This document shows, one piece after another, positions 9,934 through 58,850 of a DNA stretch of 64,000 nt. The position numbers and the translations under genes are program-made. The stretch spans positions 1 through 64,000 of the forward strand of contig JANQRB010000013.1 of assembly GCA_028284775.1 (NCBI GenBank), given 5' to 3'. This stretch comes from Candidatus Kapaibacterium sp. (GTDB lineage: Bacteria > Bacteroidota > Ignavibacteria > Kapaibacteriales > UBA7675). The notes under the pieces are model-generated. The model ran no database searches. It worked only from the letters and a program-made list of their open reading frames with translations, and was not told the origin of the DNA. The first letter of the stretch is position 1. Each line of letters begins with the position of its first letter.

Positions 9934-10569
9934 TCAGTCGACGTATTGCGGTGTTGAATTAACCGCATTGCTGCAATCGAATAAATCGATGCGCGATTTA
10001 CCGCCGCTGCATTCGACCGTGCTGCAGCTTTCGGCCTTGCGGACCACGTATCGTTCGAAGGTACCCGGCAGCTTGCACACGCAATAGGTCACCGTGCAAC
10101 AGGAAGCGTCGTCACAGCCGATGTATTGGTAGCCGCAGGCGCTCTCAGTGTGAGGAATGCGGGACCAGCAGCTTGCACCGAGCACCACGCGGTAGATCAC
10201 GCCGCAGGTCCCCGGCAGGCCGGTACAGGGCGGATCGTCGGCCGGAAAATTCATTGGATTACTTTTAAGCAGCTCGATCGAAATCAGATCGATGATTAAA
10301 GCCATCGAATGCGCAGCCATCGGGTCAGTCGCCGGCGAGCCGACCGGGATGACCCAGTCAAGATGCACGTCATAAGTCTGTCCACAGGCAAAACGCTGCC
10401 GATACTGAACCTTGAAATTGCCGTAGCTCGTTGTTAACAGGTGGACGCGCGGAAAGCTCCAGTCAGATGCGGGGCAGTCGGGTTTACATGGAATGCGGTC
10501 CAGCTCATCAGCCGGAAGCGGCGGATGAAACAGAGCGAGAGCCAGTATAATGAGAGTGATCGACTTCAT
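9934..10569 (-). CDS. Cys-rich secreted protein, paralog of its upstream neighbour
   Basis: This 211-residue protein has a signal peptide (MKSITLIILALALFHPPLPA). The mature part has many cysteines, including CKPDCP, a GASCWSRI motif and CDDASCCTVTYCVC, so it should be disulfide-bonded outside the cytoplasm. The next gene upstream (10589-11269) shares the same order of features: a YGNFKVQY/VGNFSVEY strand, a central helix ending in SNP, the CWSRI motif, then a paired-Cys D-S-C-C segment. The two arose by tandem duplication. No known family is recognised. Confidence 0.65.
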   Translation of the reverse strand: MKSITLIILALALFHPPLPADELDRIPCKPDCPASDWSFPRVHLLTTSYGNFKVQYRQRFACGQTYDVHLDWVIPVGSPATDPMAAHSMALIIDLISIELLKSNPMNFPADDPPCTGLPGTCGVIYRVVLGASCWSRIPHTESACGYQYIGCDDASCCTVTYCVCKLPGTFERYVVRKAESCSTVECSGGKSRIDLFDCSNAVNSTPQYVD

Positions 10570-10588: not shown

Positions 10589-11269
10589 TTAATTGGTTAA
10601 CTCGTGACAATTGAAACAGGCCTCTTCGCAGGCCGACCCGCCCGCCGGCGGCGTTCCGAAGACAACGTCATCATCGCAGATTTCGCCGATCCTGCCGCCG
10701 AGAACAAGATTGCTGATCCCCTGGCTCGCAAAGTTCGTGGCACAGTAGAGATCGATACAGCAGGATACGTCCGTGCAGGGAGCATAAATGACCGGACAAT
10801 CGTCCGCGCCGACGTTAATACGGGACCAGCACGAAGCCTTCAGCACCCGAAAGCTGACATTGCAATGCTGCAGCGACTGCGAGCCGGGCGTGCCGAAGGG
10901 ATTGCTGTAGATAAGCTGCGACATTACTGCATCGATCAGACAGGATATCGAGTAGCCGGCGTACAAGTCCACGCCCGCGGCGCCATGCGAATAAATCGTA
11001 TGAACCTGCAGATCGAAGTAACCGGTCTGACAACCCAGGCTGCGCTTGCTGTATTCGACGCTAAAGTTGCCGACACCAGGTACCAGCACAACCGCCGTCG
11101 TTACGCTGCCGAAGGGATCGTTGCAATAGATAGTGCATGGGGTCCCGCTGCTTGGATTGCCCCGGTTGATACCGGCTACAAAGCCGTCGACTTGTGCCTG
11201 TATCGGCGGCCCGAAAAGCAGAGCGCAGAGCAGAGCGGCTATCAGCGTTAAGTTTCTTGAGAAAGACAT
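10589..11269 (-). CDS. Cys-rich secreted protein, paralog of its downstream neighbour
   Basis: This is a 226-residue protein. ATG at 11269 was chosen because it begins a good signal peptide (MSFSRNLTLIAALLCALLFG...IQAQ). The longer in-frame reading to 11443 would overlap the upstream gene and bury the signal. It carries about 17 cysteines in the mature part, including CTIYC, the KASCWSRI motif, TDVSCCIDLYC and CEEACFNC. Similarity to the 9934-10569 protein covers most of the length, though the C-terminus here ends in an extra Cys cluster. Gap to the next gene is 19 bp. Role is unknown; a small disulfide-rich surface protein is the best description. Confidence 0.65.
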   Translation of the reverse strand: MSFSRNLTLIAALLCALLFGPPIQAQVDGFVAGINRGNPSSGTPCTIYCNDPFGSVTTAVVLVPGVGNFSVEYSKRSLGCQTGYFDLQVHTIYSHGAAGVDLYAGYSISCLIDAVMSQLIYSNPFGTPGSQSLQHCNVSFRVLKASCWSRINVGADDCPVIYAPCTDVSCCIDLYCATNFASQGISNLVLGGRIGEICDDDVVFGTPPAGGSACEEACFNCHELTN

Positions 11270-11294
11270 ACCATTGTTCTCGAAGTGAAAATTG

Positions 11295-13559
11295 TTAATC
11301 GGCGATAATGATCCTGCGAACCAGCTCTTGTCCGTCGGCCCGCAACCGCATGAGATAGCTGCCCGGCGCCAGCCGATTGCCGTTGCGCTCATCAAGCGGT
11401 CGCCAACGCAATTGCTGCACGCCGCGATCCAGCCGACTGTCATCGATCAACGTTGCGACCAGCCGATTCTGTAAATCGTACACGCCCAGGGTCAACTCCA
11501 TCCCGGCATGCAGGCGAATACGGACCAGTGCCTCGTCCTTCACCGGCATCGGGTACACGTCAAGCTCGAGGACAGCGCGATCTCTGCCGAGGATCCCTTC
11601 GGCGTCCTCATCCAGGCTGATTTGCTCGTTAGTGCGCGGCTCTATAATACTCTCGCTGCTGCCGTCCGGCCAGTGAATGATCAGGGAATCGACAGCTCGC
11701 TCGTCGCCCATTCCGAAGTGCAGACGCGGCGCGCCCTGACGCAGCGCGCCCCGACCGGCAATGACTGTTGCGGAACGCCGACTGCCGTCCTGATAGAGAT
11801 CGACACGTGCTCCAGCGGCGACAGGGGCCGGCCGGCCGTTTAGATCCAGGCTGAGAAAATTGTTGTCATAGGGACCTTCATTTCGATACAGCGCCAGAAA
11901 GGCTCCGTTGTTTGTGGCAAGGTCAAGCCGGCCGTCGTTGTCAAGATCGATCCAGACCGCATCGCGGCTGCCTTTGATGTCCCACATACCATAGGCGTAG
12001 CTTTCATCGACAAATGCGCCACCGGGCTGTTGCAGCAAGAGGCGCGGCGACTGGCAGGTGTCCGGGCTTGCGACAAAAATATCGGGCAGAGCGTCGTTGT
12101 TAATATCCACCAGCGTGACGGAGCCGTTTACCTCGCGAAAGACAAAAGCGTGATCAGCGTCAAACTTTATATCCGAGCCGAATACAGCGGCGGACGGTAT
12201 GGGATCTCCCTCCTGCTGCGGGCCTTTGCGGGCTGTGCTAAGCCCCGCGATGAAGTCCGCTTTCCCGTCTCCATTCAGATCACCGATATCGCCGGCGCTC
12301 GTACCGGTATGGAGCGGGACCGGCGAAGCTTCCGCATTTCCATAACTTACGAATCTCTTGTCCTGACCCTGATTAAGAAGTATTTCGGGATGTTCCGCCT
12401 GAGCCCTGTTGAGAAGCAGGTCGGGCAGTCCATCGGCGTTCCAATCCTGCCAGAGCGCGGCGGGTGCGATTGCCGCTCCGCCGCCGATTGACGCAGGCAG
12501 GTAGACCTCGCCGACGTCGCTGAAGCCATTGCGTCCGTCATTCCGCAACAGGCTATGTTGAATTGTCAGATCGCCGAGCCGGCCCGCGATGTATATGTCG
12601 GGCAAGCCATCATTGTTAAAATCACTGATACTGAAGCTCTGCGGCAGAGCGCCAAGTTCGAGCATCGACGGCAGATTTGTAAAGCGGCCGTCCTGCTGGT
12701 TAAGATGAATCTGAATTTCGCTCGCGGCGCCGCCGACCGTCAGCAGATCGGGATACAAATCGGCGTTAACATCAATGAAGCAGGCCATCCCGCAGTCGGC
12801 CTCCAGGTTCAGTCCCGCGTCCTGCTCAAGAAAATAGCCGCCGGCATTTCGGTAGAGTTTGCCGCCCGCCAGCAAATCATAAAAGCCGTCCCTGTCGTAG
12901 TCGCCAAATGCAATCGAAGCAATCGCTAGCGAATCGTCGACACCCAGCTCGCGCGTAACATCGCGCAGATGCGTCTTGCTGTCTTCCGCCGGATAACTGA
13001 CCAAAGCTTCGATCGCAAAGCCACCCGTCAGATAACGCCATTCGCCCTCAGCGGATTTAACAAGCTGGTCGTAGTAGGCTTCGCCCTCCACGCTGGTACA
13101 ACAGGGCTCGCGCTTGCTGTTGTCGGAGATCAGATACACATCGCGGTCCAGGTGCTCGACAAGCACATAGAATTGAGTGCCCCGGATCAGCGGGCCGTCG
13201 TGCAGCGGGACTTCGATCCATTCCGCCCCTCGCTGTGTCTTGCGCAGGGTGAGCGGCTCGATCAGATCGCGCTCATAGAGCGGAAAGGCTGCATCGCCTT
13301 CGCTGCCGAATATCTGCAGGCGGACGCGGCCGGAGGCATTGACGCCGCCGAGTCTGATGTTAAGCTGCAGTAGCTGCGCCGGCGCCGCAAGCCGAAAGCG
13401 TCCGGCGAACTTCCGGCAGGACTCATCATGTATTTCGATGGGTTGACCGCTTTGCCGGTAGCGCGACAGCGTATCGATCGTTTCGGCAGAAGCAACAGAC
13501 GGCAGAGCAAAAAAGCTAAGCGCCAATATGAGGGCCGCAGCCGGATTATTGTTCGTCAT
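11295..13559 (-). CDS. FG-GAP/ASPIC-UnbV repeat protein with T9SS sorting tail
   Basis: The protein is 754 residues from ATG 13559, which starts a signal peptide (MTNNNPAAALILALSFFALPSVASA). The middle (about residues 150-560) has repeated Ca-binding-type FG-GAP/VCBS units such as FGDYDRDGFYDLLAGG, DFNNDGLPDIYIAG, DLNGDGKADFIAG and DLDNDGRLDLATN, predicting a beta-propeller. About residues 560-645 match an ASPIC/UnbV module (LSLDLNGRPAPVAAGARV, HFGMGDERAVDSLIIHWPDG). The last 90 residues are a T9SS type A sorting domain: DVYPMPVKDEALVRIRL, then APGSYLMRL and a basic end. So it should be exported by Sec, then passed through the outer membrane by T9SS and left on the surface. It follows the SBBP gene by only 13 bp. 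Confidence 0.9.
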   Translation of the reverse strand: MTNNNPAAALILALSFFALPSVASAETIDTLSRYRQSGQPIEIHDESCRKFAGRFRLAAPAQLLQLNIRLGGVNASGRVRLQIFGSEGDAAFPLYERDLIEPLTLRKTQRGAEWIEVPLHDGPLIRGTQFYVLVEHLDRDVYLISDNSKREPCCTSVEGEAYYDQLVKSAEGEWRYLTGGFAIEALVSYPAEDSKTHLRDVTRELGVDDSLAIASIAFGDYDRDGFYDLLAGGKLYRNAGGYFLEQDAGLNLEADCGMACFIDVNADLYPDLLTVGGAASEIQIHLNQQDGRFTNLPSMLELGALPQSFSISDFNNDGLPDIYIAGRLGDLTIQHSLLRNDGRNGFSDVGEVYLPASIGGGAAIAPAALWQDWNADGLPDLLLNRAQAEHPEILLNQGQDKRFVSYGNAEASPVPLHTGTSAGDIGDLNGDGKADFIAGLSTARKGPQQEGDPIPSAAVFGSDIKFDADHAFVFREVNGSVTLVDINNDALPDIFVASPDTCQSPRLLLQQPGGAFVDESYAYGMWDIKGSRDAVWIDLDNDGRLDLATNNGAFLALYRNEGPYDNNFLSLDLNGRPAPVAAGARVDLYQDGSRRSATVIAGRGALRQGAPRLHFGMGDERAVDSLIIHWPDGSSESIIEPRTNEQISLDEDAEGILGRDRAVLELDVYPMPVKDEALVRIRLHAGMELTLGVYDLQNRLVATLIDDSRLDRGVQQLRWRPLDERNGNRLAPGSYLMRLRADGQELVRRIIIAD

Positions 13560-32070: not shown

Positions 32071-32334
32071 GTGGTCTTCGGCTTCGCTCTGACCTCCGGG
32101 TAGGAAGCTTCGAATACTTTTTGCCGTCGGTAAGCGGCGGTCTTCGGCTCCGCTCTGACCTCGGGGTAGGAAGCTTCGAATACTTTCTACCGTCGGTACG
32201 TTGCGGTCTTCGGCTGCGCTCTGACCTCGGGGTTTGAAGCTTTAAATTCTTTCTGACGTCGGTAAAATGCGGTCTTCGACTTCGCTCTGACCTCAGGGTT
32301 TGAAGCTTTAAATTCTTTCTGACGTCGAAACTCC
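32071..32334. repeat. Four tandem 66-bp repeats
   Basis: Units start at 32071, 32137, 32203 and 32269, each exactly 66 bp. Every unit begins with GCGGTCTTCGGCT-type sequence, then CGCTCTGACCTC, GGAAGCTTCGAA or GAAGCTTTAAAT, and ends with GTCGGTA. Units 1-2 and units 3-4 form two similar pairs. A reversed half-unit follows at 32337-32358. Since 66 is 22 codons, the minus strand stays open and would read 22-residue repeats, rich in Arg and Ser, but no start site or neighbour supports a gene. It lies between two convergent genes. Confidence 0.85.
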
Positions 32335-36697: not shown

Positions 36698-38338
36698 CTA
36701 GGGATTTGACGCGGAAGGATAGTCCACCATTCTTCCGAAATCCATTTTCACGATGCGATCGGCAGCATGGAAAAAGTTGTCATCGTGCGAGACGGCAATG
36801 ACGGTCTTGCCTTGATCCTTTAACTCAGGGAGCAGGTGTTCATAAAAAAACTTCTTGAACTCGGGGTCCTGATCCGCCGCAACTTCGTCGAATATGAGAA
36901 TCGGCTTGTCTTCGATCAGGGCGGCAATGATTGCCAGTCGTTTACGCTGGCCGGTGGACAGGTTCAGATTGCTGAAGCGGCCGTCGGCAAAGGAAGTCTT
37001 ATGATCGAGATCCAGCAACTGCAGTAGTCGCGCTACCAGCTCGGGCCGCTGTACCTGCACGCCGTAGAGAAATGTAAACAAATGAAAATCGGTAAATATC
37101 GATGAGAAGAGTTCGCGATAGCTCGGGTAGTCGAAGGTCCCGATCTGACGACCGTCAATGTCAATGATTCCGCCGAGGGGAATGTAGAGACCGGCAATGA
37201 GTTTAAGCAAGGTGGACTTGCCGCTGCCGTTGCCGCCGATGATAAACAGGATTTCGCCTTTGTTGACCTGCAGATCGACCGGGCCGGTACAGAAAGCAGC
37301 ATGACTGGCTTCGGCTTCGTATTCGAACAGGAGCTGACGAAATGTAATCTTATCGTTAAACTCCGGCGGCTTGACATTGAGCGGATCGGTCGGATAGGCA
37401 ATTCCACTGCCTTTCTCGAGTTCGCCTTCGAGCTTTTCAATATTCTGCGCCGCCGCATTCGCTTTGGTGAAGAGCTGCACGCTGCCTACCAGGGATTCCA
37501 TCGGACCGACAATGAACAGCAGCGCCGTCACTATTCGCGCGGATGAGCCATCGGGTAGTCCGCCAAACTTCGGCAGAATAAAAATGATACTGCCGATTAA
37601 CAGGTAAAAGAAGAGCTGTGAAAAGGTCATGTTGTGCACATAGTGAAAGCCCGTCCTGATCTTTATCGCTTCGGTCTCCCGGGCCAGCGTGCTGAATTCA
37701 TCGAAGAGGCTTTCGTTCTTGCGGTGGTGGAGTTTCAGCTCCTTGATGCCGGCCAGGATTTCGTGCAGCGACTCGAAAAACTTGGTCTCTTTGGCGAACA
37801 TCAGGCGAATATCACTTCTGATCCGTTTTTGTTTGGACATGTAATACACAAAGCCGAGCGCGACGGCGATCAGAACTATAACAAAGGCCGGCAAGGCAAG
37901 ATAAGCCAGATACAAGATGCAGGCGCTGATCATTATCGCAGCCTGGCAGGCATTGATAAGGTAGGCCGCCGTTTGTGAAATGTAATTGGCATCCTGTGTG
38001 ATGCGGGCATAAATGTTGGCGGAACCCATGCCTTCGATAACGGCGAGCTCCGATTTGCGAATCTTGTCGGCCAGGCGCAGCCGCAGCTTCGAAACGACTT
38101 TTTCCACAATAATCGTCGAACGCCGCAGAATGTCTTTTTTGGAATAATAGAAGGACAGCACCACAGACAGAAAGAGCGCGAAATGTTTAAAGCCGATGTC
38201 GTCCGCGTTCTGCTCGCCGATGATCGAATTGATGATTGCCAGCAACAAAGCATTCGTGATGCCCGAGAACGCCGCCATGGCGATTAAGGAACGGAATGAA
38301 GTCTGCGACTCTTTTCTGATCAGATGAAGTATTTGCAT
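36698..38338 (-). CDS. ABC exporter, fused permease and ATPase (PvdE/cyclic-peptide type)
   Basis: This 546-residue half-transporter has six membrane helices in the first 300 residues and a nucleotide-binding domain after about 330. The Walker A motif is at 369-376 (GNGSGKST), the signature is L460-STGQRKR, Walker B is ILIFDE with E485, and the switch His is H518. The variant signature STGQRKRLA and the overall form resemble PvdE/SyrD-type exporters of peptide siderophores and related molecules. No peptide synthetase is nearby. The gene starts 9 bp after lpxD, so they are almost certainly cotranscribed; export of a lipid or acylated peptide is one possibility. Confidence 0.87.
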   Translation of the reverse strand: MQILHLIRKESQTSFRSLIAMAAFSGITNALLLAIINSIIGEQNADDIGFKHFALFLSVVLSFYYSKKDILRRSTIIVEKVVSKLRLRLADKIRKSELAVIEGMGSANIYARITQDANYISQTAAYLINACQAAIMISACILYLAYLALPAFVIVLIAVALGFVYYMSKQKRIRSDIRLMFAKETKFFESLHEILAGIKELKLHHRKNESLFDEFSTLARETEAIKIRTGFHYVHNMTFSQLFFYLLIGSIIFILPKFGGLPDGSSARIVTALLFIVGPMESLVGSVQLFTKANAAAQNIEKLEGELEKGSGIAYPTDPLNVKPPEFNDKITFRQLLFEYEAEASHAAFCTGPVDLQVNKGEILFIIGGNGSGKSTLLKLIAGLYIPLGGIIDIDGRQIGTFDYPSYRELFSSIFTDFHLFTFLYGVQVQRPELVARLLQLLDLDHKTSFADGRFSNLNLSTGQRKRLAIIAALIEDKPILIFDEVAADQDPEFKKFFYEHLLPELKDQGKTVIAVSHDDNFFHAADRIVKMDFGRMVDYPSASNP

Positions 38339-48238: not shown

Positions 48239-48889
48239 CGACCGGGTTGAAAGACAGACATGAACTGAGATGCAGGGTATGGGATGTTAAAAAAAATCGA
48301 CTACAGCTCTCCTGTCGTCAATTGTCCACGCGAACGGAGCAGGCTTAAGAAAGGGACGTAGGAAATGCTCGAAAAGACAAGCGCATACAATTGCTGCAAC
48401 AACCATTAAGGTTATTACGACCTGCAGCAAGAGGCTCAAGGCCAGAATGTCTATCTGATTATCGCGGCATTAGACGACGGCGTTTCCCGGAAGGTTTACA
48501 TCTTACAGTGGGTAAACATTGAATTGGCGGGCCGGACTTCGGTAGTGAAACTTCAAGGATCGTCACAGATTGAATAATCTCCCTTCTCTCCCGAAGAGTG
48601 CCATCGCGGGCAAGGGTCGGGCCCGGTCTTCGCAATGAACCCCCGCCATAGACTTGCGTGGATACCAAGAGCGAATGATTGCATTGCGGCATCATCCGAC
48701 AGCCGTCGCGCCTGCCCCGGTACTGTAGAGCCGCGAAGCGAAACGATCTGAAACGCTCGGAGTTCACTGCAATACTCGAAAGTGACTCCGGTGCTTTGCG
48801 GCGATCCTGATCGGCGGTCGTGACAGCGACGCGTCGGAGTCCGGCAGGAATAGTTGGCGGCGGCATTTCGATCCATCCGCGGAGGAATT
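48239..48889. other. Gene-free stretch of about 650 bp
   Basis: There is no convincing coding frame. A 43-codon frame with GGAGG upstream begins right after it, at 48890, and ends at 49021 directly before the first MKFQ peptide; it could be a leader but has no relatives here. Confidence 0.35.
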
Positions 48890-48963
48890 ATGCAGCTTGC
48901 ATCAGCCTTTCGACCAGCAGCGCGATTTTTTTGCCGAACATACCAACCTTTGATTCGAGCGAC

Positions 48964-48971
48964 TGTATTTG
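48964..48971 (+). promoter_or_regulatory. Possible -7 element of first MKFQ peptide
   Basis: TGTATTTG differs from TAnnTTTG at one fixed position and is followed by TCCT, like the TTTGTACT seen at the other two copies. It lies 63 nt before the start codon, close to the 70 and 73 nt found at the others. Confidence 0.3.
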
Positions 48972-49026
48972 TCCTCAACGACGCCTTATGGCAATGTTCA
49001 TTCGGATTTCAGCTCAGGTGAATGTT

Positions 49027-49194
49027 ATGAAATTCCAGCTTGTTTACGGACTTCTCGTCTTGACTTTCCTCGCAATACTGAATGTCTGTGCCCTGGTGAG
49101 TAACAGCACGCTGAGTACGGTGACGCCGGGCGTCGAAAAGACTGAAACTCTTGTGATGGCTCAATCCACACTCAGTGCCGAAGATGTGGATTGA
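49027..49194 (+). CDS. MKFQ-family small membrane or secreted peptide 1
   Basis: This 55-residue peptide starts MKFQLVYGLLVLTFLAILNV. It shares its first 23 residues, almost position by position, with the peptides at 49692 and 56820; the tails differ. One hydrophobic helix (residues 5-24) is either a membrane anchor or an uncleaved/cleavable signal, with a Ser/Thr-rich acidic tail (ending SAEDVD) outside. In-frame ATG codons occur upstream (48994), but MKFQ is the start shared by all three. The DNA before the start, ATTTCAGCTCAGG, is shared with the second copy, so they come from a recent local duplication. Nothing similar is known to me. Confidence 0.6.
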   Translation: MKFQLVYGLLVLTFLAILNVCALVSNSTLSTVTPGVEKTETLVMAQSTLSAEDVD

Positions 49195-49621
49195 GACTTC
49201 ACAGGAATTCGCCGGCGGGGCCGAGCTGTCAAGGCTGGTTCCGCTTCAACAATCGGCTGCAAACAACTAATGAGCTACCGTTCGGGCGTGAGAGAGCGAT
49301 TTTTCCCCTGGCCTTGCGGCGAGAGATTCCCGGCTCGGTGCCGAAGTCGCGGATCGGATTTCCGCAAGGTCACGCAGCTCGATTCACGAATAGCTGAGCG
49401 AACTCTGTGTTCGAGGAATCGGTTCCCGGCCGGGGGAAGACAAGACGGGAACCGGGCCGACCCGGCGAAATCCGACTGAAGTTATTGCAGACAATCAAGC
49501 GCTGACCCAGCTCGCCTCAGCGCATCCCGTATTCGTATTGTTCGTGCTGTTCCTGGCAGCGGCAGGATTTATTCTGCCGCTGTTGAAGTTTTGTTGTAAA
49601 CACCCGCCAACAATTTGACGC
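49195..49621. other. Spacer between two MKFQ peptides
   Basis: No gene is visible. It holds the hairpin at 49557 and the promoter element of the second peptide. Confidence 0.4.
49557..49582 (+). terminator. Hairpin, possible terminator of first MKFQ peptide
   Basis: CAGCGGCAG (49557-49565) and CTGCCGCTG (49574-49582) form a perfect 9-bp stem with an 8-nt loop, followed by TTGAAGTTTTGTTG. The T-run is broken, so termination would be weak. It lies 360 bp after the first peptide and 40 bp before the next -7 element. Confidence 0.4.
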
Positions 49622-49629
49622 TAGCTTTG
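49622..49629 (+). promoter_or_regulatory. -7 element of second MKFQ peptide
   Basis: TAGCTTTG is an exact TAnnTTTG match, followed by TACTTG; the third peptide has TATCTTTGTACTGT at nearly the same distance (73 nt against 70 here). No good -33 TTG lies at the right spacing. Confidence 0.45.
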
Positions 49630-49691
49630 TACTTGAAATCGACAGCGATCGACAAACAACGTCAATGTCAAATTTCAGCTCAGGAACCGCA

Positions 49692-49865
49692 ATGAAATTC
49701 CAAGCCATCTACGGACTTCTCGTCTTAGCATTCCTCGCCATTTTGAATATTTATGCCCTTGCAGGCGGCAGCGACCCACGGAATGAATCAGCAATTCCCG
49801 CATCGTCCGATCATATCGAATTGCCGGGCGCGACGCTGAAGATGGAAGCGACTTATGGAGTCTGA
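49692..49865 (+). CDS. MKFQ-family small membrane or secreted peptide 2
   Basis: This 57-residue peptide starts MKFQAIYGLLVLAFLAILNI, the same N-terminal helix as the peptide 665 bp upstream. After a Gly-Gly (YALAGGSD) the sequence diverges into a polar tail ending MEATYGV. No Cys is present after the helix, so it is not a lipoprotein. With only one charged residue before the helix, the N-terminus probably stays inside and the tail faces out, or is released. An in-frame ATG nine codons earlier (49665) is possible. Conserved start plus variable tail is what one sees in precursor peptides, but no processing enzyme is adjacent. Confidence 0.65.
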   Translation: MKFQAIYGLLVLAFLAILNIYALAGGSDPRNESAIPASSDHIELPGATLKMEATYGV

Positions 49866-49895
49866 ATCTCAATTCCACCAGGGTCGAAGATCAAA

Positions 49896-50399
49896 TCACA
49901 GCAGCAACCTTTCCGTCAGGATTTCATCGATGTATCGACCCGCAACCAGGGCGTGATCCCGCGCTGTCCCGATTATCCTGAATCCCATCTTCAGATAAAA
50001 TCCCAGGGCTTGATGATTGTCGGCCCGAATATTTGCCATCAGCTTACGGTAGCCTCGCCCTTGCGCCGCCAGAAAAGTTGCCTCGCACAATTGGCGCCCG
50101 ATTCCCTGTCCCCGATACCCCATAGCTACAAAGCTGCCAATTGCGCCGACGTGCCGAAATGCGCTTTCATCCGTGCAGAGCGGCAGCACCTCCTGTAATC
50201 CATACAATTCGGAACTTCCTGAATCGAACGCAAGGTGATAAACAGCCGGCTCGGGCAGAGCGCGTATGAAGCCTATCTGGTCTTCCGTAGAAAGTTCCCG
50301 GTCCATAATCGTAAATCTGCCGTCCCGAATGATGGGATTCAGCAGATCGACAACCGCGGCCGCATCTTCTTCGCGCGCAGATCTGATTTTGAGATTCAT
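49896..50399 (-). CDS. GNAT-family N-acetyltransferase
   Basis: This 167-residue cytoplasmic protein has the acetyl-CoA-binding signature in AMGYRGQGIGRQLCEATF (R/Q-x-x-G-x-G form), preceded by a beta-strand (VGAIGSFV) and followed by KLMANIRADNHQALGFYLKMGF, the usual last strand and helix. The N-terminal LKIRSAREEDAAAVVDLLN is also typical. The acceptor cannot be told. It stands alone on the minus strand, close to the second MKFQ peptide whose stop lies 31 bp away on the other strand. Confidence 0.9.
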   Translation of the reverse strand: MNLKIRSAREEDAAAVVDLLNPIIRDGRFTIMDRELSTEDQIGFIRALPEPAVYHLAFDSGSSELYGLQEVLPLCTDESAFRHVGAIGSFVAMGYRGQGIGRQLCEATFLAAQGRGYRKLMANIRADNHQALGFYLKMGFRIIGTARDHALVAGRYIDEILTERLLL

Positions 50400-50507
50400 A
50401 GGGTGATTCAGGATTGGGGACGGTCGAGATTATCTGGCGAAAACGAGGACTGCCGCGACCGTCACTTTGGGCTGAGGGCGAGCTTCGTGATGGCCTTGCG
50501 TACTGAG

Positions 50508-51326
50508 TTATTGTTTTCTCGCGTCCTCAAGTATCGGACGTACCTGTGGGCTGGCATCCTCAAGCAGGCGCCGGTAGTAAGTATCCTGATCCGGGGTATC
50601 GGGATAGTGTAATCTGGCGCCCGCAGCAAGCAGCATACGGACCAGCTCAGTATAAACATCCTGGCGTTCGTCCGCGCCGCCCGAATAGCGCGAACCGTGC
50701 ACGGCCCAGCCCAAGGGCGAACTCTCATGAACGGGATCGAATACTTCGAGTGGCGCGCCGGCGTCCAGCAGCAGTTGCGCATTGGCGGGCTGGCCGAACC
50801 AGGCAGTCTGGTGAAGCGGAGTGCCGCCGTCCAGGGCCGGTGCGCTGAGATCGGCCCCGCTGCTGATCAACAATTGCACGGGCTCGCTCGGATTGCGTCC
50901 GGCGACGTCCGCCAGCAGGCGATCCTCTTCGGGATTGCCCGTCCGGACAATGCCCGGCTGAGCCGCGATCAGCGCCCGCGCCTCGTCCAGACGACCATTG
51001 ACGATCGCTACGGCCAGGCGGTCGGCATCATTGAGCTCGGTGCTCGCGCCGCGTGCCTGCAGTGCCTCGGCGACTTCATCAAAGCGACGGCGGATGGCAT
51101 GAGCATAGGCCGTTTTGCCTGCGGCAGAGCCGGCGTCGACATCGGCGCCGGCATCGAGCAGAATCTCCACTGCAGCAAGCCGACGACGACGGGTAGCCAC
51201 ATGAAGGGGCGTCTCTGCCAGGGCACCTTCCCGATTAGCGAGATTCGCACCCGCCGCCAGCATTCGGCGCAGCTTATCATCACCGTCAGGGCCGTAGTGA
51301 AAGTCGAGAAAATCATGTAAAGTCAT
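50508..51326 (-). CDS. Ankyrin-repeat protein
   Basis: This 272-residue protein begins at ATG 51326 (MTLHDFLDFHYGPDG). Ankyrin units are clear: AETPLHVATRRRRLAAVEILLDAGADVDAG, then KTAYAHAIRRRFDEVAEALQARGA, DGGTPLHQTAWFGQPANAQLLLDAGA, and SPLGWAVHGSRYSGG ending with VRMLLAAGARL. There is no signal peptide, so it probably acts in the cytoplasm as a binding protein. Its partner is unknown. Confidence 0.9.
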   Translation of the reverse strand: MTLHDFLDFHYGPDGDDKLRRMLAAGANLANREGALAETPLHVATRRRRLAAVEILLDAGADVDAGSAAGKTAYAHAIRRRFDEVAEALQARGASTELNDADRLAVAIVNGRLDEARALIAAQPGIVRTGNPEEDRLLADVAGRNPSEPVQLLISSGADLSAPALDGGTPLHQTAWFGQPANAQLLLDAGAPLEVFDPVHESSPLGWAVHGSRYSGGADERQDVYTELVRMLLAAGARLHYPDTPDQDTYYRRLLEDASPQVRPILEDARKQ

Positions 51327-51456
51327 TGTACATTCCAGCAATGCTGATCGGAGTTTTAGCTAAAGATAGCCTCGCTTCGTTGATAATTCCTTATCTCTGC
51401 CTAGATTGCCCTGCGTTTCCGGCATAATAGCTCTTATCGCATTACCTAGCTTCGAA

Positions 51457-53175
51457 ATGATTAAACTGTTCAGACTGCTGACGGCTTCTCTGCTGGCGTA
51501 TGGAATTCTGGTACTCTTCTCCGACCGATTGATGAGGGCTAACTCATCGGCCGCAACCGGACCCGAGCGAAGCCGCGTTTTAGCTGCCACCGGCTCCAAG
51601 GCTTTCACCGACCTCCAACAGTCGGCTACATCGTCAATTGCCGCACAGGCCGATTGGTATTCGGCGGCCCTCTACCCCGTCTGGGGCGCCGACAACATTA
51701 CAGGGGCACAGGACATCGCTGCCAGCGCCAGCCTCTACTGCACGGGCGACAGCATCATCGTTGAAGTCCGGGTTATCGATGATGTACTGATCGAAAATGA
51801 CGACCCACTGCATTGCGATCACGTTGAAATCTGGTTTGCCCTGCCTGACATTCAAAACAGCGATTATCTGGCTTATGGGACCGGACTCTTCCGGCATAGG
51901 GACAATCCCGATTCCAGCCTGGATCCCGTACAATTCGCGCGCGAGCACGAGTTTCCACAGTCAGAGGAAGAGTTGCGAAGATATGGCATCTATGAATATG
52001 AAATAATCGATCCGGCCCGCTTTTATCGTCAGACGGTCTTTTTCGGGATGGTCCACTATGGCCTGTTTCCCGGCGGTCGCGACCCACTGCGATATGATAA
52101 TGAGTTTTATGCCAGGTCCGGAATGCCGGCCGATGCCGCGACAAGCATCCGCCACCAGCTGCGCCGCAGTGCCAATGGCTACCATCTGAGGGCCGCCTTC
52201 CCGCCGGCCGCTCTGGCTTTCCTGCAACTGCCGGAGATGCAGGACATACGCGTGATGATCGACGTCATCGATGTCGATCACGCCGGCGGACGGCAGGAGT
52301 CGCTCCTGTCTAGCGCACCGAAGCACGAATGGGGGCAGCCGCGCAGCTTCGAGCGGGTGTCGCTGGCGCGTCCGCTGGCCGCCAACATGTCGTCGCTGCC
52401 CGATTCGGTCTTTCATATCGTCGAAAGGCGACCCGTGATGCAGTACTTCGGCCCCGGCGATTGGCGTTTTGTCGCATGGCGGGAGCTCTGGCCGGATTAC
52501 TATCCGAGCAAGGTATGGGATATGCTCGGCCTGATCCGCTACGAATGGGACGACTACCGCTATGAGCTACGCGATACGACAGTCGACGGTGTTCAACTGT
52601 CCGAGCTGCGTGAATTCGACAGCCGTTTCAGTTCCGAGGATTCCCGATTTGTCAGCTATATTATCAACGGCAATGCGATTAAAGGATTCAGCCACCCCGC
52701 GATCATGGCCCCTGATGGAATTCCGGCATACATCCGGCGCTCCGATTATGAAGAAGGGAACGACGACATCGAATCCGAAAGATCCGACGACAAGGTATTT
52801 GTTCGCCTGCCCGACGGAGGGCTTGGATTTTTCCTGCTCGACAGTTTCCAGCAAAGTCCCTGGGGACGCGGCCCCTGCGGCGCTTGCATCATAGTGGATG
52901 TCAATTTTTATCGCCTGTCGGGTACCGGCATCGAACAACTTTTTGGCTTGGAATACAATCTCGGCAATCTCTGGCTGCGCTTTGATGACGAACGGAAGAT
53001 TGGCTTCGAAGAAGTCTTCGGCCTGAATATTGCTTGGATCGAAGAGGGGCGGCACCTGCGCATTAGGTTGATGCCCGATTCCGACTTTCTCGATGAAGGC
53101 GCAAAGCCGCTTGCCCGAGTTGACTATCACTTCAGCGCCCACGGGGTCAGACGGAGCCTGCATTCGCAGGAATGA
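51457..53175 (+). CDS. Exported protein with CBM9/DOMON-like N-terminal domain
   Basis: This is a 572-residue protein. ATG at 51457 gives a signal-like start (MIKLFRLLTASLLAYGILVLF). About residues 70-290 look like a carbohydrate-binding family 9-type sandwich: SASLYCTGDSIIVEVRVIDD, DHVEIWFALPD, GYHLRAAFPPAAL, VMIDVIDVDHAGG. The C-terminal half has repeated aromatic and acidic strands (GDWRFVAWRELWPDYYP, VDVNFYRLSGTGI) and is not recognised. The protein is probably periplasmic or surface-bound. It converges on the propeller/T9SS gene, with MITE copy 2 between them. Confidence 0.55.
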   Translation: MIKLFRLLTASLLAYGILVLFSDRLMRANSSAATGPERSRVLAATGSKAFTDLQQSATSSIAAQADWYSAALYPVWGADNITGAQDIAASASLYCTGDSIIVEVRVIDDVLIENDDPLHCDHVEIWFALPDIQNSDYLAYGTGLFRHRDNPDSSLDPVQFAREHEFPQSEEELRRYGIYEYEIIDPARFYRQTVFFGMVHYGLFPGGRDPLRYDNEFYARSGMPADAATSIRHQLRRSANGYHLRAAFPPAALAFLQLPEMQDIRVMIDVIDVDHAGGRQESLLSSAPKHEWGQPRSFERVSLARPLAANMSSLPDSVFHIVERRPVMQYFGPGDWRFVAWRELWPDYYPSKVWDMLGLIRYEWDDYRYELRDTTVDGVQLSELREFDSRFSSEDSRFVSYIINGNAIKGFSHPAIMAPDGIPAYIRRSDYEEGNDDIESERSDDKVFVRLPDGGLGFFLLDSFQQSPWGRGPCGACIIVDVNFYRLSGTGIEQLFGLEYNLGNLWLRFDDERKIGFEEVFGLNIAWIEEGRHLRIRLMPDSDFLDEGAKPLARVDYHFSAHGVRRSLHSQE

Positions 53176-53337
53176 ACATCCCGGCGCTCCCGCGGACAGG
53201 TCCATTGCCGCTGGTCGGCTCCGGGTGAATATGATGGCCCTGAATGTCAGGATCAGAGAAACAGCACTGCAGTTGCGGTTTGTTCAGGCATGCCTAAAAC
53301 GCTGACCGCACTTAATGAATGTCCACAAGCTAGCGCT

Positions 53338-53477
53338 TTGTCAACTAAGTAAGTTTCAAATCCCCCCCTTTGTTGAAAGAGGGGCCAGGGGAGTTAGCAA
53401 GTCCTTAAATACTCATAACCCCTCCAAACCTCCCCTTATCTTAAGGGGAGGGTAACTATAAAAATTTTTATTGACAA
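53338..53477. repeat. MITE-like element, copy 2
   Basis: This is the partner of 371-533. It begins TTGTCAACTAAGT and ends TTGACAA (53471-53477), a 7-bp terminal inverted repeat. The second stem is perfect here: CCTCCCCTTA (53429-53438) with TAAGGGGAGG (53442-53451). It lies 10 bp before the stop codon of the convergent propeller gene and could act as a terminator for either side. Confidence 0.65.
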
Positions 53478-53486
53478 GACACTGGC

Positions 53487-55694
53487 TTATCGCCGAACAA
53501 CTACACGACGAACGAGTGTCCTGTCCCTACTTACATACCGTAAAAGGTAAACGCCGGGCGCGTAGGTGTTCAGGGGCAGTTTGAGGTACAGTTCGCCAGC
53601 GGAAGAGGAAGCATTCACGTCGACGTCGCAGGGCAGCTCCGCCAGGCGATTGCCGCGCAGGTCGTAAAGCTGGATCACGGCGCCGTCGCAAGCTGGGAGT
53701 TTCACCGTCAGCATTTCCGAGGCGGGATTAGGCTGAATCCTTATGGCGGGACGCACGTCACCTGCGCCGCTTTGTTGTTGCGAAACTGAGGTAATTCCCG
53801 TGCTGCGGACGTAATGCAGCCCGCCGTGGCTGCTGCCGATCCAGATTGCGCCGGACTGGTCGGCCGCGATTGCATTAAAGGGCGGGCCATACAAGGGTGA
53901 ATTTTCGACCTCATAGCTTTGCCAGCGGGTTCCATCGAAACGCACGACATTCTGACCTGCGAACCAGATATTGCCGCCGGGCTCCGCCGCTATGGCGCTA
54001 ACATGATGCGGATAGGGATTTGATTCGGAGGCCGCGAACAGGGTCCATTCCGCAAAGTCATACCTGGCGACGCCTTCCTCCGCCGCGACCCACAAACTGC
54101 CCTCGGAGTCAAAAGCCAGGGGGCCCAAACGCGTTTCGAGTGGCAGACCGCTATTGTCCTTGGTGAGCTGCGACCATGCCGATCCGTCGAAGCGGATAAT
54201 GCCGCCGGGCGTTGCCGAGCACCACAAAGCGCCGTCCGGGCCAATTATGATATTGAACATTTGTTGAAAATTAAAACCGGCATCGCTCACGCCGTAAGCC
54301 TGCCATGATGTGCCGTCAAAGCGTACGAGGGCTTCTGATTGACTTGGCCTTGCGATCCACAGCCCGCCGTCGCCGTCCGCCGCCAGGTCTCCGGCGCGAT
54401 CGATGGGCGCCTGATCGGTATCGTCCGGCGTCAGCACTTCCAGCTTCTCGCCGTCGAAATGCACCAGTCCCGCCCTGATGGCGGCCCAGATATGCCCCTT
54501 GTTCGGATCGATCGTCAGGCTCGTAATCGAACGGCGCGCAGGAAGGGCGGAGTTTTCCGAGGTGAATTCTCTCCATTCGCCGCCGTCGAAAGCAGCCAGG
54601 CCGCCGGAACCGCCGCCGCTGGCCCACACCGTCCCCTCGGCGCTGATCGCAATGTCGGAGATGACATCCGAGGGCACTTTGCTGTCGGAAGGCAGAATCA
54701 CGTCCCATTCACCGCCGGATGTCGAACTGATCCCCGTGCTGGTGCCGAGCCACATCCGGCCATCGGAGCGGCCGGCGATAGCCGTGACGCCGGTTTGCGG
54801 CAGAGTGGAATTTTCCGCTGTGAAGCTTTCCCAGGCGCCAGCGTCATAGACGCCCGCGCCGCCCGGCCCGCCGACCCAGACACGGCCAAGGTCATCGATA
54901 TGAATCGACAGTACAGGTAGTCGCGGAGCGACGACACCGCCGCTCAGGCCCCATCGCGCTTCAAATTTGCTCCATTGCTCGCCATCGTAGCGATAGACAT
55001 CGGCATTGGTGCCGCCCACCCAAACATTACCGTCGGCATCAACGCCGATCGATTCGGGCGAAAGACCCGGTCCGTCTGTAAACGATGCTGGATGATGTGT
55101 CCAAACGCCGCGATCTAGAGCCGAGACTGCAATTCCGTGGGTGTCGGTGAAAACCGTCATCACGATCCTGCCCGCGCTGTCCAGGGCCAGTCTGCCGATC
55201 CTGTCGTCGGCAATGTCCGAGTTGGCGGTTGACAGGATTGTCCATTCGCCGCCGGCCAAACTCGCCAGCCCGCCACTCCAGGTGGCGATCCAGATAGTAT
55301 TGTTCCGATCCTGGACAATATCGCAAACCAGATTGCTTGGCAAGGCCGAGTTCTCGGTCGTCAGGCTTTCCAGCGCATCGCCCTGGAGCAGAGCGAGGCC
55401 GCCGCCGTAAGCAGCGACCCATATATCGCCGTTCCGCGCCCGGAATACACTGCGGATATTGTTGGAAGGAAGGTCGGAGTTAGCCTCTTTAAACCACACG
55501 CGGGTGTTGCTGCTCTTGTCGATTTTCAGCAAACCGTTGCCCCTCGTTCCGACATAAAGATTGTCCTCGGTTTCGAGCAGGGCAGTGATATCGTTGCCGT
55601 TGCCGAAGTTTAACCACTCGCCGTCGAGCGTCTGGGCACCGATACAGGAGGAACTAATCAATAGCACGATGACAATGACAGAGCCTACATTCAT
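53487..55694 (-). CDS. Two-component-propeller-like surface protein with T9SS sorting tail
   Basis: This 735-residue protein has a signal peptide (MNVGSVIVIVLLISSSCIGAQ). Residues 25-620 hold about twelve propeller blades of the kind seen in two-component sensors, for example VFRARNGDIWVAAYGGGLAL, VQDRNNTIWIATWSGGLASL and AADQSGAIWIGSSHGGLHYV, with N-x-x-LP segments between. Unlike the sensor at 43249 it has no kinase. The last 85 residues are a T9SS type A sorting domain (IQPNPASEMLTVKLP, then YAPGVYLLRYVSRD and a basic end), so it should be displayed on the cell surface. Its ligand is unknown. Confidence 0.9.
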   Translation of the reverse strand: MNVGSVIVIVLLISSSCIGAQTLDGEWLNFGNGNDITALLETEDNLYVGTRGNGLLKIDKSSNTRVWFKEANSDLPSNNIRSVFRARNGDIWVAAYGGGLALLQGDALESLTTENSALPSNLVCDIVQDRNNTIWIATWSGGLASLAGGEWTILSTANSDIADDRIGRLALDSAGRIVMTVFTDTHGIAVSALDRGVWTHHPASFTDGPGLSPESIGVDADGNVWVGGTNADVYRYDGEQWSKFEARWGLSGGVVAPRLPVLSIHIDDLGRVWVGGPGGAGVYDAGAWESFTAENSTLPQTGVTAIAGRSDGRMWLGTSTGISSTSGGEWDVILPSDSKVPSDVISDIAISAEGTVWASGGGSGGLAAFDGGEWREFTSENSALPARRSITSLTIDPNKGHIWAAIRAGLVHFDGEKLEVLTPDDTDQAPIDRAGDLAADGDGGLWIARPSQSEALVRFDGTSWQAYGVSDAGFNFQQMFNIIIGPDGALWCSATPGGIIRFDGSAWSQLTKDNSGLPLETRLGPLAFDSEGSLWVAAEEGVARYDFAEWTLFAASESNPYPHHVSAIAAEPGGNIWFAGQNVVRFDGTRWQSYEVENSPLYGPPFNAIAADQSGAIWIGSSHGGLHYVRSTGITSVSQQQSGAGDVRPAIRIQPNPASEMLTVKLPACDGAVIQLYDLRGNRLAELPCDVDVNASSSAGELYLKLPLNTYAPGVYLLRYVSRDRTLVRRVVVRR

Positions 55695-56726
55695 ACGTTA
55701 TCTCACTTTGCAAATTTTTTCCAATTCAACTCGCCCCGACAGACTGATATTTCAAAAATTTGTTACGGTGAATTCCGCAGCTTTTTTCAAAACTCCGGCT
55801 GCCGGAGTATTCATCCTTCACGAATCCTGCCGTACGCTGTCCTGATCAACGACCGAATCCGGATGGACCGGCCTGACTCTTGCCATTCCGTGTTTCCGCC
55901 GCCGGAGCGATCGGTTCGAGCTCATGAGCCTCCTTTGATTGACTTGGGAATAGGCTCAAGCGACTGCACGCGAAATGATGTTTTTTGATGGAGCCGCTCC
56001 AGCCTTTCGCCTGCCGAGCACCATCAAAACAGGAAGAGCCCGTTGCGCGTCCGAATGCGAGCCGGGCTCAGGCTTGCGATGCGGATTGCGGCCTGTCAGG
56101 CCCCCTGTTTGTTTCAGGCTGCCTGACACAAGGGCGAACAGAGCGGGTTTACGGCGTCCGCTCTCCTTGCAAAGCCAGACGCTTGTAGCTGTCAGCTGCT
56201 AGCAGGTAGCAGTGCCTGATCAAGCAAGCATTTCAATTTATCCTTCATTAAGGCTGTGAGAATCATAAGTTCAGACAAAAAGCTTCCGCTACTAGTCGAC
56301 TGGACAAGGCTGATTCGTTTCGATGTATAGGTACTCACGCAGCCTCACCGCCCGGGAAAACTCACACAGACGCTCTGCCTCCGGGAGCGAACATGGAGCG
56401 TTCATTGGGTGAATTCTGCGCGGACCGGCTGGCCGAGGGGTTTAGTTGACAGTTAACGCATTCGTCACATTGTTCCGCTCGGGAATCCAATCACAGCTTC
56501 GTATTTCCGGGACGGACGAGCATCGGACTGAGCGGGAGCGCTCCGACTCTTCCTGCCACCGCGATCAATCCCCGGCCCGGCTGCCCTCTTGCAGCAGCTG
56601 AAAAATTCCTCCGAACTTTCCCAGCTCGCATACCAAACGATCAATCCGTATTTCTACGTATTATCGCATCGGAGAGAAAATTTCTTCGGCTTTGTGAGGC
56701 AATTCTGTAGTAGAACTGTAGTATAG
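55695..56726. other. Gene-free stretch of about 1 kb
   Basis: No gene can be supported. A near-perfect palindrome, ACTCCGGC-T-GCCGGAGT at 55792-55808, lies upstream of the propeller gene; read on the minus strand it is followed by TTTTG. The remainder is of mixed composition. The third MKFQ peptide lies at the right end. Confidence 0.4.
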
Positions 56727-56754
56727 TTGTGACAACATTGCGACCGTATCTTTG
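56727..56754 (+). promoter_or_regulatory. Bacteroidota-type promoter of third MKFQ peptide
   Basis: TTG at 56727-56729 and TATCTTTG at 56747-56754 are 17 bp apart and match the -33 and -7 consensus. The start codon is 73 nt downstream from the -7 element. The following TACT is shared with the element at 49622. Confidence 0.55.
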
Positions 56755-56819
56755 TACTGTCTCTATCAATGATCATAAGATGTTAATTCGGTACTGGTGA
56801 AAAGTAGACGGTGACGGCA

Positions 56820-57104
56820 ATGAAATTCCAGACGATCTATGCTCTCGTGGTGGTAGCCTTTCTGATTCTGATAAATATCTGCGCCTTTACAGGCTGTCCT
56901 GGGGACGCTGCCGATGCAGGGCCTAATGCAGACGCCGTCAGAAAGACCGAAGCCGAACAGGCGGCTGAAAACATGCGTGGGGCATGTCAGATCAGACCGG
57001 GAATACAAAGTGAGCAGGCGGCGTCCAATGCTACAATGCCGGTGCCCGACAACAAGAAACTGCATCGCAGCATTGACGAAACAGCTGGCGAAGCATCTTT
57101 GTAA
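56820..57104 (+). CDS. MKFQ-family small membrane or secreted peptide 3
   Basis: This 94-residue peptide begins MKFQTIYALVVVAFLILINI, matching the 49027 and 49692 peptides over the helix. It then has CAFTGCPGD; the Cys at residue 26 follows F-T-G and only loosely fits a lipobox. The tail is longer than in the others (about 68 residues), polar and Ala/Glu-rich, with a second Cys near the middle (MRGACQIRP). It is about 7 kb from the other two, so duplication was not only local. The clear promoter upstream supports expression. Confidence 0.65.
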   Translation: MKFQTIYALVVVAFLILINICAFTGCPGDAADAGPNADAVRKTEAEQAAENMRGACQIRPGIQSEQAASNATMPVPDNKKLHRSIDETAGEASL

Positions 57105-57234
57105 ATACTTACAATGCGGCAGGGCTCTCCGTAGGTTTTGGTTTAGTACCTCTCGGTTTTACACCCTTTTCCTGGCCGGACTATCACAAGCTGCGAAGCG
57201 GCGCGCAGGACTTAACAATTAAACAGGAAGCTGT

Positions 57235-58644
57235 TCAGAGTACTTCTACCGTTTGCTGGTCCTCAATCCTTATTCCACCCACTGTGTATTCACGGTGGTC
57301 ATTGGAGTTTAAGGTGACACGAATTTCATGACTGCCCGGCGGCAGGGGCGGCAGGTGATACCAGGGGCCGTACACTCGAGCTACCTTGCGGCCGTCGACG
57401 TACAGATGAGCGTGTCCTTCCCCTTCCACATGCACGCCATCAGCCGCGGTGGGTGCGAAGCGAAAATTTTTAACGTCGATCCTGAGCGTGATGCCGGCGT
57501 CATTAATCGACTGGATAATGAGCTTGACGGTCGGGATATCGGCTGTATTCGCAACTTCGACCTTGCCGTGGTGATTGTGACCGCCGCGGACAACAAACTC
57601 CCGATATGCGGTCTGGGCGCTGTTCACGTATGGCACCAGCATCAGTGTTAACAGAACCGCAAAGTTAAGCGCCGCGAACACGACACGCTGTACCGGCTTC
57701 TGGTGAAAGGTGTAGGGCGCCGAGTAGCGTTTGCCGGGGCCTTCGATCAGCAGCACGATCAGCGCGGCGTGAATCAGGGTATGCCCGATGACTTCAAGCT
57801 TGCCGAAGGTCAGGGTCGTCATAAAAAACACCAGCGTGATGAAGAGGGAAATCGGCCGCTGCAGTAAACCGATAATCAGGAGATAACCCAGACAAAACTC
57901 CACAAAGGCGGAGGCGGTCAGGAAGAGACTCAAATCGAGTCCCATAGCCAGATGGCTTTGCTGTTCGAGCACCGACAGCCCCCATTCAGGATAGACTACT
58001 TTTTCCAAAGCGACCCAGCAGAGCGAAAATCCAAGCGTAAAATACAGCGCCGGAAGGGCGCTGCTTTGAAACTTCGCATTGGTGTTTTCACCTGCCAGCA
58101 AGAAATAGCCGACGCCGGCATAGAGCAGATAATCCAGCATATGCAGCATACCGAACTCAATGATGCCGAATGTAAAGAGACCGATCAGGCCCAGGCCCGC
58201 CAGCGGCGTCGTTCGTTGAAACAAAAGCAGCAGCGCCAGGCCGAATTGATACCAGCCGATCCAGTCGGCCGCATGATCCAGCTCGGGCACCAGCATAGCG
58301 TTGGCCTGCCACGAGAGCAGCATGACGGCGCCGGTGCCGACACGCAGAACAATCTGACTGTAATTGCCGATTTTGCCCAGGCGTTCATCCATCCGCCGGA
58401 AATAGGGCGTATTCTGGAGTTTATAATCCAGGACAACCATCAGTGACATTACAAGCATCGCGGCAACCGCCAGCAACAGGAAGGTAGGCGTGACCGCTTC
58501 CGCAAGAGTCAGCGGCCGGTCGCCATAGCTGAAATTGCTGTACCATTTGACATGCGCCAGCAGAGCCGGTGCGGCGGTACAGAAGATAAACAGATTCAAA
58601 GCAACAAAAATTGTACGCGAGGCAGCGAGCGGCGCTTTGAGCAT
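57235..58644 (-). CDS. DoxX-like membrane protein with C-terminal extracytoplasmic domain
   Basis: This is a 469-residue protein. ATG at 58644 starts at MLKAPLAASRTIFVALNLFI; the longer frame to 58815 would overlap the divergent gene's leader. About nine membrane helices cover residues 10-345, including a DoxX-like four-helix part. Then comes a beta domain outside the membrane: PTVKLIIQSINDAGITLRIDV, EGHAHLYVDGRKVARVYGPWYHLPP and REYTVGGIRI. The same domain occurs alone in exported proteins of other bacteria; the His-rich GGHNHHGK just before it and the HAH motif suggest a metal site. Function is unknown. Confidence 0.6.
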   Translation of the reverse strand: MLKAPLAASRTIFVALNLFIFCTAAPALLAHVKWYSNFSYGDRPLTLAEAVTPTFLLLAVAAMLVMSLMVVLDYKLQNTPYFRRMDERLGKIGNYSQIVLRVGTGAVMLLSWQANAMLVPELDHAADWIGWYQFGLALLLLFQRTTPLAGLGLIGLFTFGIIEFGMLHMLDYLLYAGVGYFLLAGENTNAKFQSSALPALYFTLGFSLCWVALEKVVYPEWGLSVLEQQSHLAMGLDLSLFLTASAFVEFCLGYLLIIGLLQRPISLFITLVFFMTTLTFGKLEVIGHTLIHAALIVLLIEGPGKRYSAPYTFHQKPVQRVVFAALNFAVLLTLMLVPYVNSAQTAYREFVVRGGHNHHGKVEVANTADIPTVKLIIQSINDAGITLRIDVKNFRFAPTAADGVHVEGEGHAHLYVDGRKVARVYGPWYHLPPLPPGSHEIRVTLNSNDHREYTVGGIRIEDQQTVEVL

Positions 58645-58850
58645 TGATTTCTCGAAATTGTCGTACAAGGATTCAGCGTCAAAAATACCAAATGTTATGG
58701 AATTAAGTGAGGCGCACCCGTCGGGTCCGCCCTTTTTTCGCAATGCGTATTCCCCGCCTGCCATTCCGGGCGCCGTCGCCTGGCAATTTGCCGTTCCGGC
58801 GAATTCTGTTTGCATCGCGTGCCGAAAGCCATTATACTGCCGACCGGCAA

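Follow-up and report, generated by a model that had tools for sequence, protein, structure and literature searches.

Three tiny genes with a common N-terminal helix form an orphan family of putative exported peptides in a Candidatus Kapaibacterium genome

Are three short open reading frames (ORFs) that all begin with MKFQ, and that lie in intergenic gaps of a Candidatus Kapaibacterium genome, real genes, and if so, what might their products do? The ORFs encode peptides of 55 amino acids (copy 1, 49027–49194), 57 amino acids (copy 2, 49692–49865) and 94 amino acids (copy 3, 56820–57104), and all are on the plus strand of the window, by which we mean the whole 64,000-nucleotide stretch of DNA that was analysed. 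The window is taken from a contig of 71,432 bases, in a genome of 7.9 Mb and 190 contigs that is 91.6% complete and in which T9SS sorting domains are present, as fits a genome from the Bacteroidota sphere. An initial annotation had proposed that the ORFs, at these coordinates and lengths, belong to one family whose members share an N-terminal helix and upstream elements but have unrelated tails. Our analysis bears out the ORFs and supports the proposal: by sequence comparison, they are a real new orphan family of duplicated tiny genes, and most likely encode small exported peptides. Selection has retained their N-terminal 23 residues, an export or membrane helix, together with the control regions upstream, whereas the remainder of each peptide has diverged.

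The three peptides share an N-terminus of about 23 residues, which in copy 1 makes up the helix (residues 1–23) and is followed by an acidic tail. Eleven positions of a 27-residue alignment are invariant in all three copies (M1, K2, F3, Q4, Y7, L9, V11, F14, L15, N19 and A22), and across these 27 residues copies 1 and 3 are 70% and 56% identical to copy 2. Profiles made from two copies recovered the omitted third from a background of 6,529 ORF N-termini, drawn from approximately 480 kb of the same genome, with E values of 8e-13 for copy 1, 4e-14 for copy 2 and 3e-9 for copy 3. The best unrelated match in these searches had an E value of 0.45. Because of these values, which place the common MKFQ segment far above chance, we take the N-terminal likeness to be homology and not merely a common hydrophobic composition.

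The pattern of substitution within the helix is that of a coding sequence. Copies 1 and 2 differ at 16 of 69 bases of helix DNA, distributed as five, two and nine over the first, second and third codon positions (pS 0.61, pN 0.11, dN/dS about 0.10). Copy 3 is more divergent, with a pS near 0.9 that is saturated. Equally few amino-acid changes were rarely obtained when the same base changes were placed at random (P of 0.0026, 0.0106 and 0.0024). Since the base differences are mostly synonymous and the amino-acid changes few relative to random placement, the N-terminal helix has been translated and retained under selection, whether or not this still holds today.

Beyond the helix the likeness ends. 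In a search, the DNA of copies 1 and 2 is similar only between 49006, which is 21 nucleotides before the start, and 49094, at codon 23. Pairwise comparison of the three tails revealed no significant protein similarity, with all scores at chance level, and kinship of the tails was rejected at the protein level; local DNA similarity between them is at most marginal (P of 0.004, 0.036 and 0.38, using simple shuffles). The tails are thus unrelated as originally described. With synonymous sites mostly diverged, a tail without constraint is expected to be unalignable, as these are. The copy 2 tail also has a 25-base match on another contig (C125); the larger reading frame around it is unrelated, with a short SDH-ELPG likeness, and we took the match as chance. 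All three tails are acidic, with net charges of -4, -3 and -4. The tails of copies 1 and 2 use codons in the manner of coding sequence, and their own frame scores best of the six. In copy 3 the coding character of the tail is uncertain: at 0.04 bits per codon it falls below 97% of coding pieces, and nevertheless its frame is the top-scoring of the six. This tail may be young, decaying or of unusual composition.

Likeness is also found upstream of the ORFs. TAnnTTTG is a known Bacteroidota promoter element, and a promoter-like box of this type precedes each copy on the plus strand. The boxes are TGTATTTG (48964–48971), with one mismatch, located 63 nucleotides before the ATG of copy 1; TAGCTTTG (49622–49629), an exact match 70 nucleotides before that of copy 2; and TATCTTTG (56747–56754), also exact, 73 nucleotides before that of copy 3. 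This arrangement of two exact boxes and one with a single mismatch, 63–73 nucleotides upstream, confirms the earlier description. The genome has 1,384 forward and 1,389 reverse TAnnTTTG sites in 7,906,247 bases. From the forward-strand density we estimate that a site occurs by chance in about 1.2% of 70-nucleotide stretches, and at two of three copies with a probability of about 4e-4. The element is enriched before genes, with 23 occurrences in the 200 nucleotides upstream of 199 genes versus 10 in the reversed control and approximately seven expected from density. A survey of approximately 480 kb of the genome counted just 16 short ORFs that are signal-like and lie outside genes, and of these only copies 2 and 3 have TAnnTTTG 20–110 nucleotides upstream.

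Copies 1 and 2 had also been reported to share sequence upstream, and indeed the 13-mer ATTTCAGCTCAGG is located just 5' of both starts on the plus strand (49006–49018 and 49672–49684) and is exact nowhere else in the whole 7.9-Mb genome. Seven genomic sites match it with one mismatch, which is the number for the reversed control, and no similar ORF follows them. In direct alignment approximately 100 nucleotides upstream of copies 1 and 2 are homologous, with none of 2,000 shuffles aligning as well. Copies 2 and 3 align upstream over 54 nucleotides ending in CTTTGTACT (P 0.0025). The similarity between copies 1 and 3 is weaker (P 0.03, or 0.06 against random window pairs). As judged from these alignments, the unit that extends from promoter to helix is homologous among the copies, with the upstream part of copy 1 versus copy 3 only marginal.

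Copies 1 and 2 reside within a 1.66-kb gap (48239–49895) flanked by a gene weakly similar to metallo-beta-lactamases on one side and a GNAT gene on the other. The 1.54-kb gap around copy 3 (55695–57234) is bordered by a propeller gene, which has a T9SS tail, and by a gene for a DoxX-like membrane protein. The surroundings, said to be otherwise gene-poor, are so in these two gaps and not between copies 2 and 3, where there are four ordinary genes. The neighbours comprise GNAT, ankyrin, CBM9-like, propeller and DoxX-like genes. Those located 3' of copy 2 (49896–50399) and copy 3 (57235–58815) are on the minus strand, and therefore these copies head no operon and have no cis-regulated gene or dedicated maturation gene behind them. 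A terminator-like hairpin on the plus strand (49554–49585, z -3.6) is situated after copy 1 and ahead of the promoter box of copy 2, so copies 1 and 2 are probably transcribed separately. The DoxX-like gene (57235–58815) has within this genome a paralogue that is 52% identical (G000 C84:17059-18426), and one family member (G001) carries a relative at 48%; the gene is absent from the other genomes of the order that were tested. No MKFQ-like short ORF is present near the relative in G001 or the paralogue on C84.

Other features of the window and genome were observed in passing. In an intergenic region at 32073–32327 of the window, a 66-base unit (GGTCTTCGGCTTCGCTCTGACCTCGGGG...) is repeated in tandem about four times, and the repeats are 88% alike. 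Two adjacent ORFs (9934–10569 and 10589–11443) resemble paralogues in tandem that encode a secreted, cysteine-rich protein, with a common ...ASCWSRI... stretch. Elsewhere in the same genome, three short cysteine-rich proteins with signal-like starts, at L103:18246 (+), L114:6225 (-) and L096:6463 (+), share 22–24% identity and are too divergent to call a family.

A profile search of the genome itself recovered only the three copies, a 400-kb sample of it contained no further one, and other ORFs in it that start with MKFQ are unrelated. We found no relative in 98 further genomes from the family and order (including two of the same family and none of the same genus), among 396 genomes sampled from the phylum, in named genome contigs searched by profile and DNA pattern, or in IMG/VR viral contigs, plasmids and phages. 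Twenty exact pattern matches in named genomes, where we estimate that about 15 would occur by chance, have unrelated translations. Pfam, NCBIfam, PHROGs, PADLOC and PDB yielded no useful match to the three peptides. The initial annotation had held that a lack of copies in related genomes would refute a family. Related genomes yielded no copies, but the test is a weak one because the set contains no genome of the same genus, and the purifying selection seen between the paralogues speaks against ORFs that arose by chance. On present data, the MKFQ peptides appear to be an orphan family of this lineage.

Three roles had been suggested for the peptides, of which secretion fits best; the anatomy would also suit a leader-bearing precursor, but no maturation or dedicated export gene adjoins any copy, and a membrane toxin has neither an antisense promoter nor an antitoxin in its favor. 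By rule-based analysis, the N-terminal segment has the positive n-region, hydrophobic core and small residues at (-3,-1) of a Sec signal peptide. K2 provides the n-region, residues 5–18 have a mean hydropathy of 2.7–3.0 in all three copies, and V/I-x-A at positions 20–22, present in each, is the only (-3,-1)-compatible site that is common by position. The single lysine makes a weak n-region and counts against export by Sec. The peptides are unlikely to be lipoproteins, and we rejected this reading because a cysteine is not a feature of the family: no lipobox cysteine is conserved, only copy 3 has T-G-C (24–26), and copy 2 has no cysteine.

We favor, with a probability of slightly less than one half (about 0.48), a set of lineage-specific, monocistronic small peptides with a Sec-type signal peptide ending in V/I-x-A and fast-diverging acidic tails of 33–72 residues. 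The gene unit would consist of a promoter, a 5' untranslated region of approximately 55–65 nucleotides and a short coding region, and would exist as three lineage-restricted paralogues. Each copy would be transcribed alone from its Bacteroidota-type promoter. The N-terminal segment (K2, hydrophobic residues 5–18, N19 and V/I-x-A) would act as a Sec signal peptide, signal peptidase I would cut after A22, and an acidic, mostly disordered peptide of 33, 35 or 72 residues would be released to the periplasm or the outside. Since the tails change freely, they may act via composition or simple presence, or each copy may have taken its own target. In support of export we count the homology of the copies, the dN/dS of 0.10, the upstream boxes, the V/I-x-A site, the helix models, the acidic tails and the monocistronic setting, together with the coding-like codon use of tails 1 and 2 and the position of copies 2 and 3 as the sole boxed signal-like short ORFs in the approximately 480 kb surveyed. 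Against it we count the codon use of the copy 3 tail, the single-lysine n-region and the absence of an orthologue from everything searched.

Such peptides resemble known small Sec-secreted or periplasmic peptides in having a short monocistronic ORF, a lysine start, a hydrophobic core, a V/I-x-A site and a disordered tail. However, they differ from the named small secreted families in their lack of any database match and in their single-lysine n-region. The NVEALA-type peptides of Bacteroidales are also short and exported, and we take N-V/I-x-A-L/F at positions 19–23 to recall the NVEALA motif. The NVEALA family model gave no match in Pfam or NCBIfam at an E value of 0.1, and, unlike in NVEALA peptides, the motif of the MKFQ peptides is located at the end of the helix.

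The main rival is an uncleaved membrane peptide, held in the inner membrane by its helix, with the acidic tail exposed outside and a larger membrane protein as a possible binding partner. AlphaFold models predict a confident helix from residue 3 to 24 or 25 (3–25 in copy 2), with little confidence in the tails that follow. A helix of this length could span a membrane. Its 19-residue hydropathy is 2.3–2.6, selection is seen on the helix only, and a single confident N-terminal helix of approximately 22 residues with a short polar tail is typical of small single-span membrane proteins. In contrast to such proteins, the MKFQ peptides have a polar N19 and a cleavage-like V/I-x-A after the core, resembling the c-region of a signal peptide, and no linked or co-transcribed membrane partner. 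We consider an uncut anchor unlikely, and the strongest of the alternatives.

The peptides could instead be relics: an exported protein that used to be longer would have had its 5' part duplicated, and the tails would be mere read-through to the next stop in unrelated DNA. The end of likeness at about codon 23, the tail of copy 3, which is not coding-like, the intergenic setting and the lack of relatives are all as such an origin would predict. However, the helix has been retained in all three copies through near-saturated synonymous change, which relics would not be expected to sustain; the codons of tails 1 and 2 are used as in coding sequence, with their own frame best of six; and the genome contains no longer parent gene with this N-terminus. 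Relics are, in our judgment, quite improbable.

Membrane type I toxins, which are silenced by antisense RNA, usually have fewer than 60 amino acids and one helix, and most have cationic tails, while the periplasmic C-terminus of HokB is acidic (PMC8309996). The MKFQ peptides are like Hok and other such toxins in their small size, single helix and multiple copies. In addition, the last codons and stop codon of copy 1 are included in a strong hairpin (49146–49209, plus strand; -29.7 kcal/mol, z -4.5) with 25-base arms that are 84% complementary. However, this hairpin is not common to copies 2 and 3 and has no second copy in the genome. An Rfam microRNA-family match to the same bases is far under the gathering score and reflects merely this hairpin. 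Moreover, no minus-strand TAnnTTTG is present between 48000 and 57659 to serve as an antisense promoter, no antitoxin supports this role, the 5' regions of the copies are no more structured than shuffles, the tails are acidic, and copy 3 is 94 amino acids long. A toxin function is very unlikely.

Precursors of RiPPs or bacteriocins likewise combine a conserved leader with a variable core, as the constant N-terminus and variable tails do here, and an ABC transporter gene (36698–38338) scoring over the cut-off of TIGR01194 (cyclic peptide export) is found in the window. This nearest peptide-type exporter is approximately 11 kb before copy 1 and is not linked; the neighbour genes are not maturation enzymes, neither a maturation nor a dedicated export gene adjoins any copy, and the leader is a hydrophobic helix with no double-glycine or match to a known leader family, leaving a precursor role highly improbable. 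Short ORFs behind their own promoter boxes, and the strong hairpins near copy 1, might suggest regulatory leader peptides acting in cis on a gene downstream, but this reading is already contradicted by gene orientation, with opposite-strand genes after copies 2 and 3 and with copy 2, the next ORF after copy 1, having its own box.

If the MKFQ peptides are exported, the promoter, untranslated region and signal peptide may constitute a fixed cassette behind which the mature peptide diversifies, giving signals or antagonists with a constant leader and variable cargo; we offer this as a speculation with a low probability. The family is ordinary in kind and new in sequence, and the constant leader versus the drifting tail is the part worth following. 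At present, it represents another orphan family of small proteins. Its paralogues nevertheless show that a single genome can suffice to recognise a short-gene family under selection, where family libraries see nothing. Should the tails prove to be released and to diversify, these genes would offer a way into the peptide traffic of a lineage that lacks experimental work.
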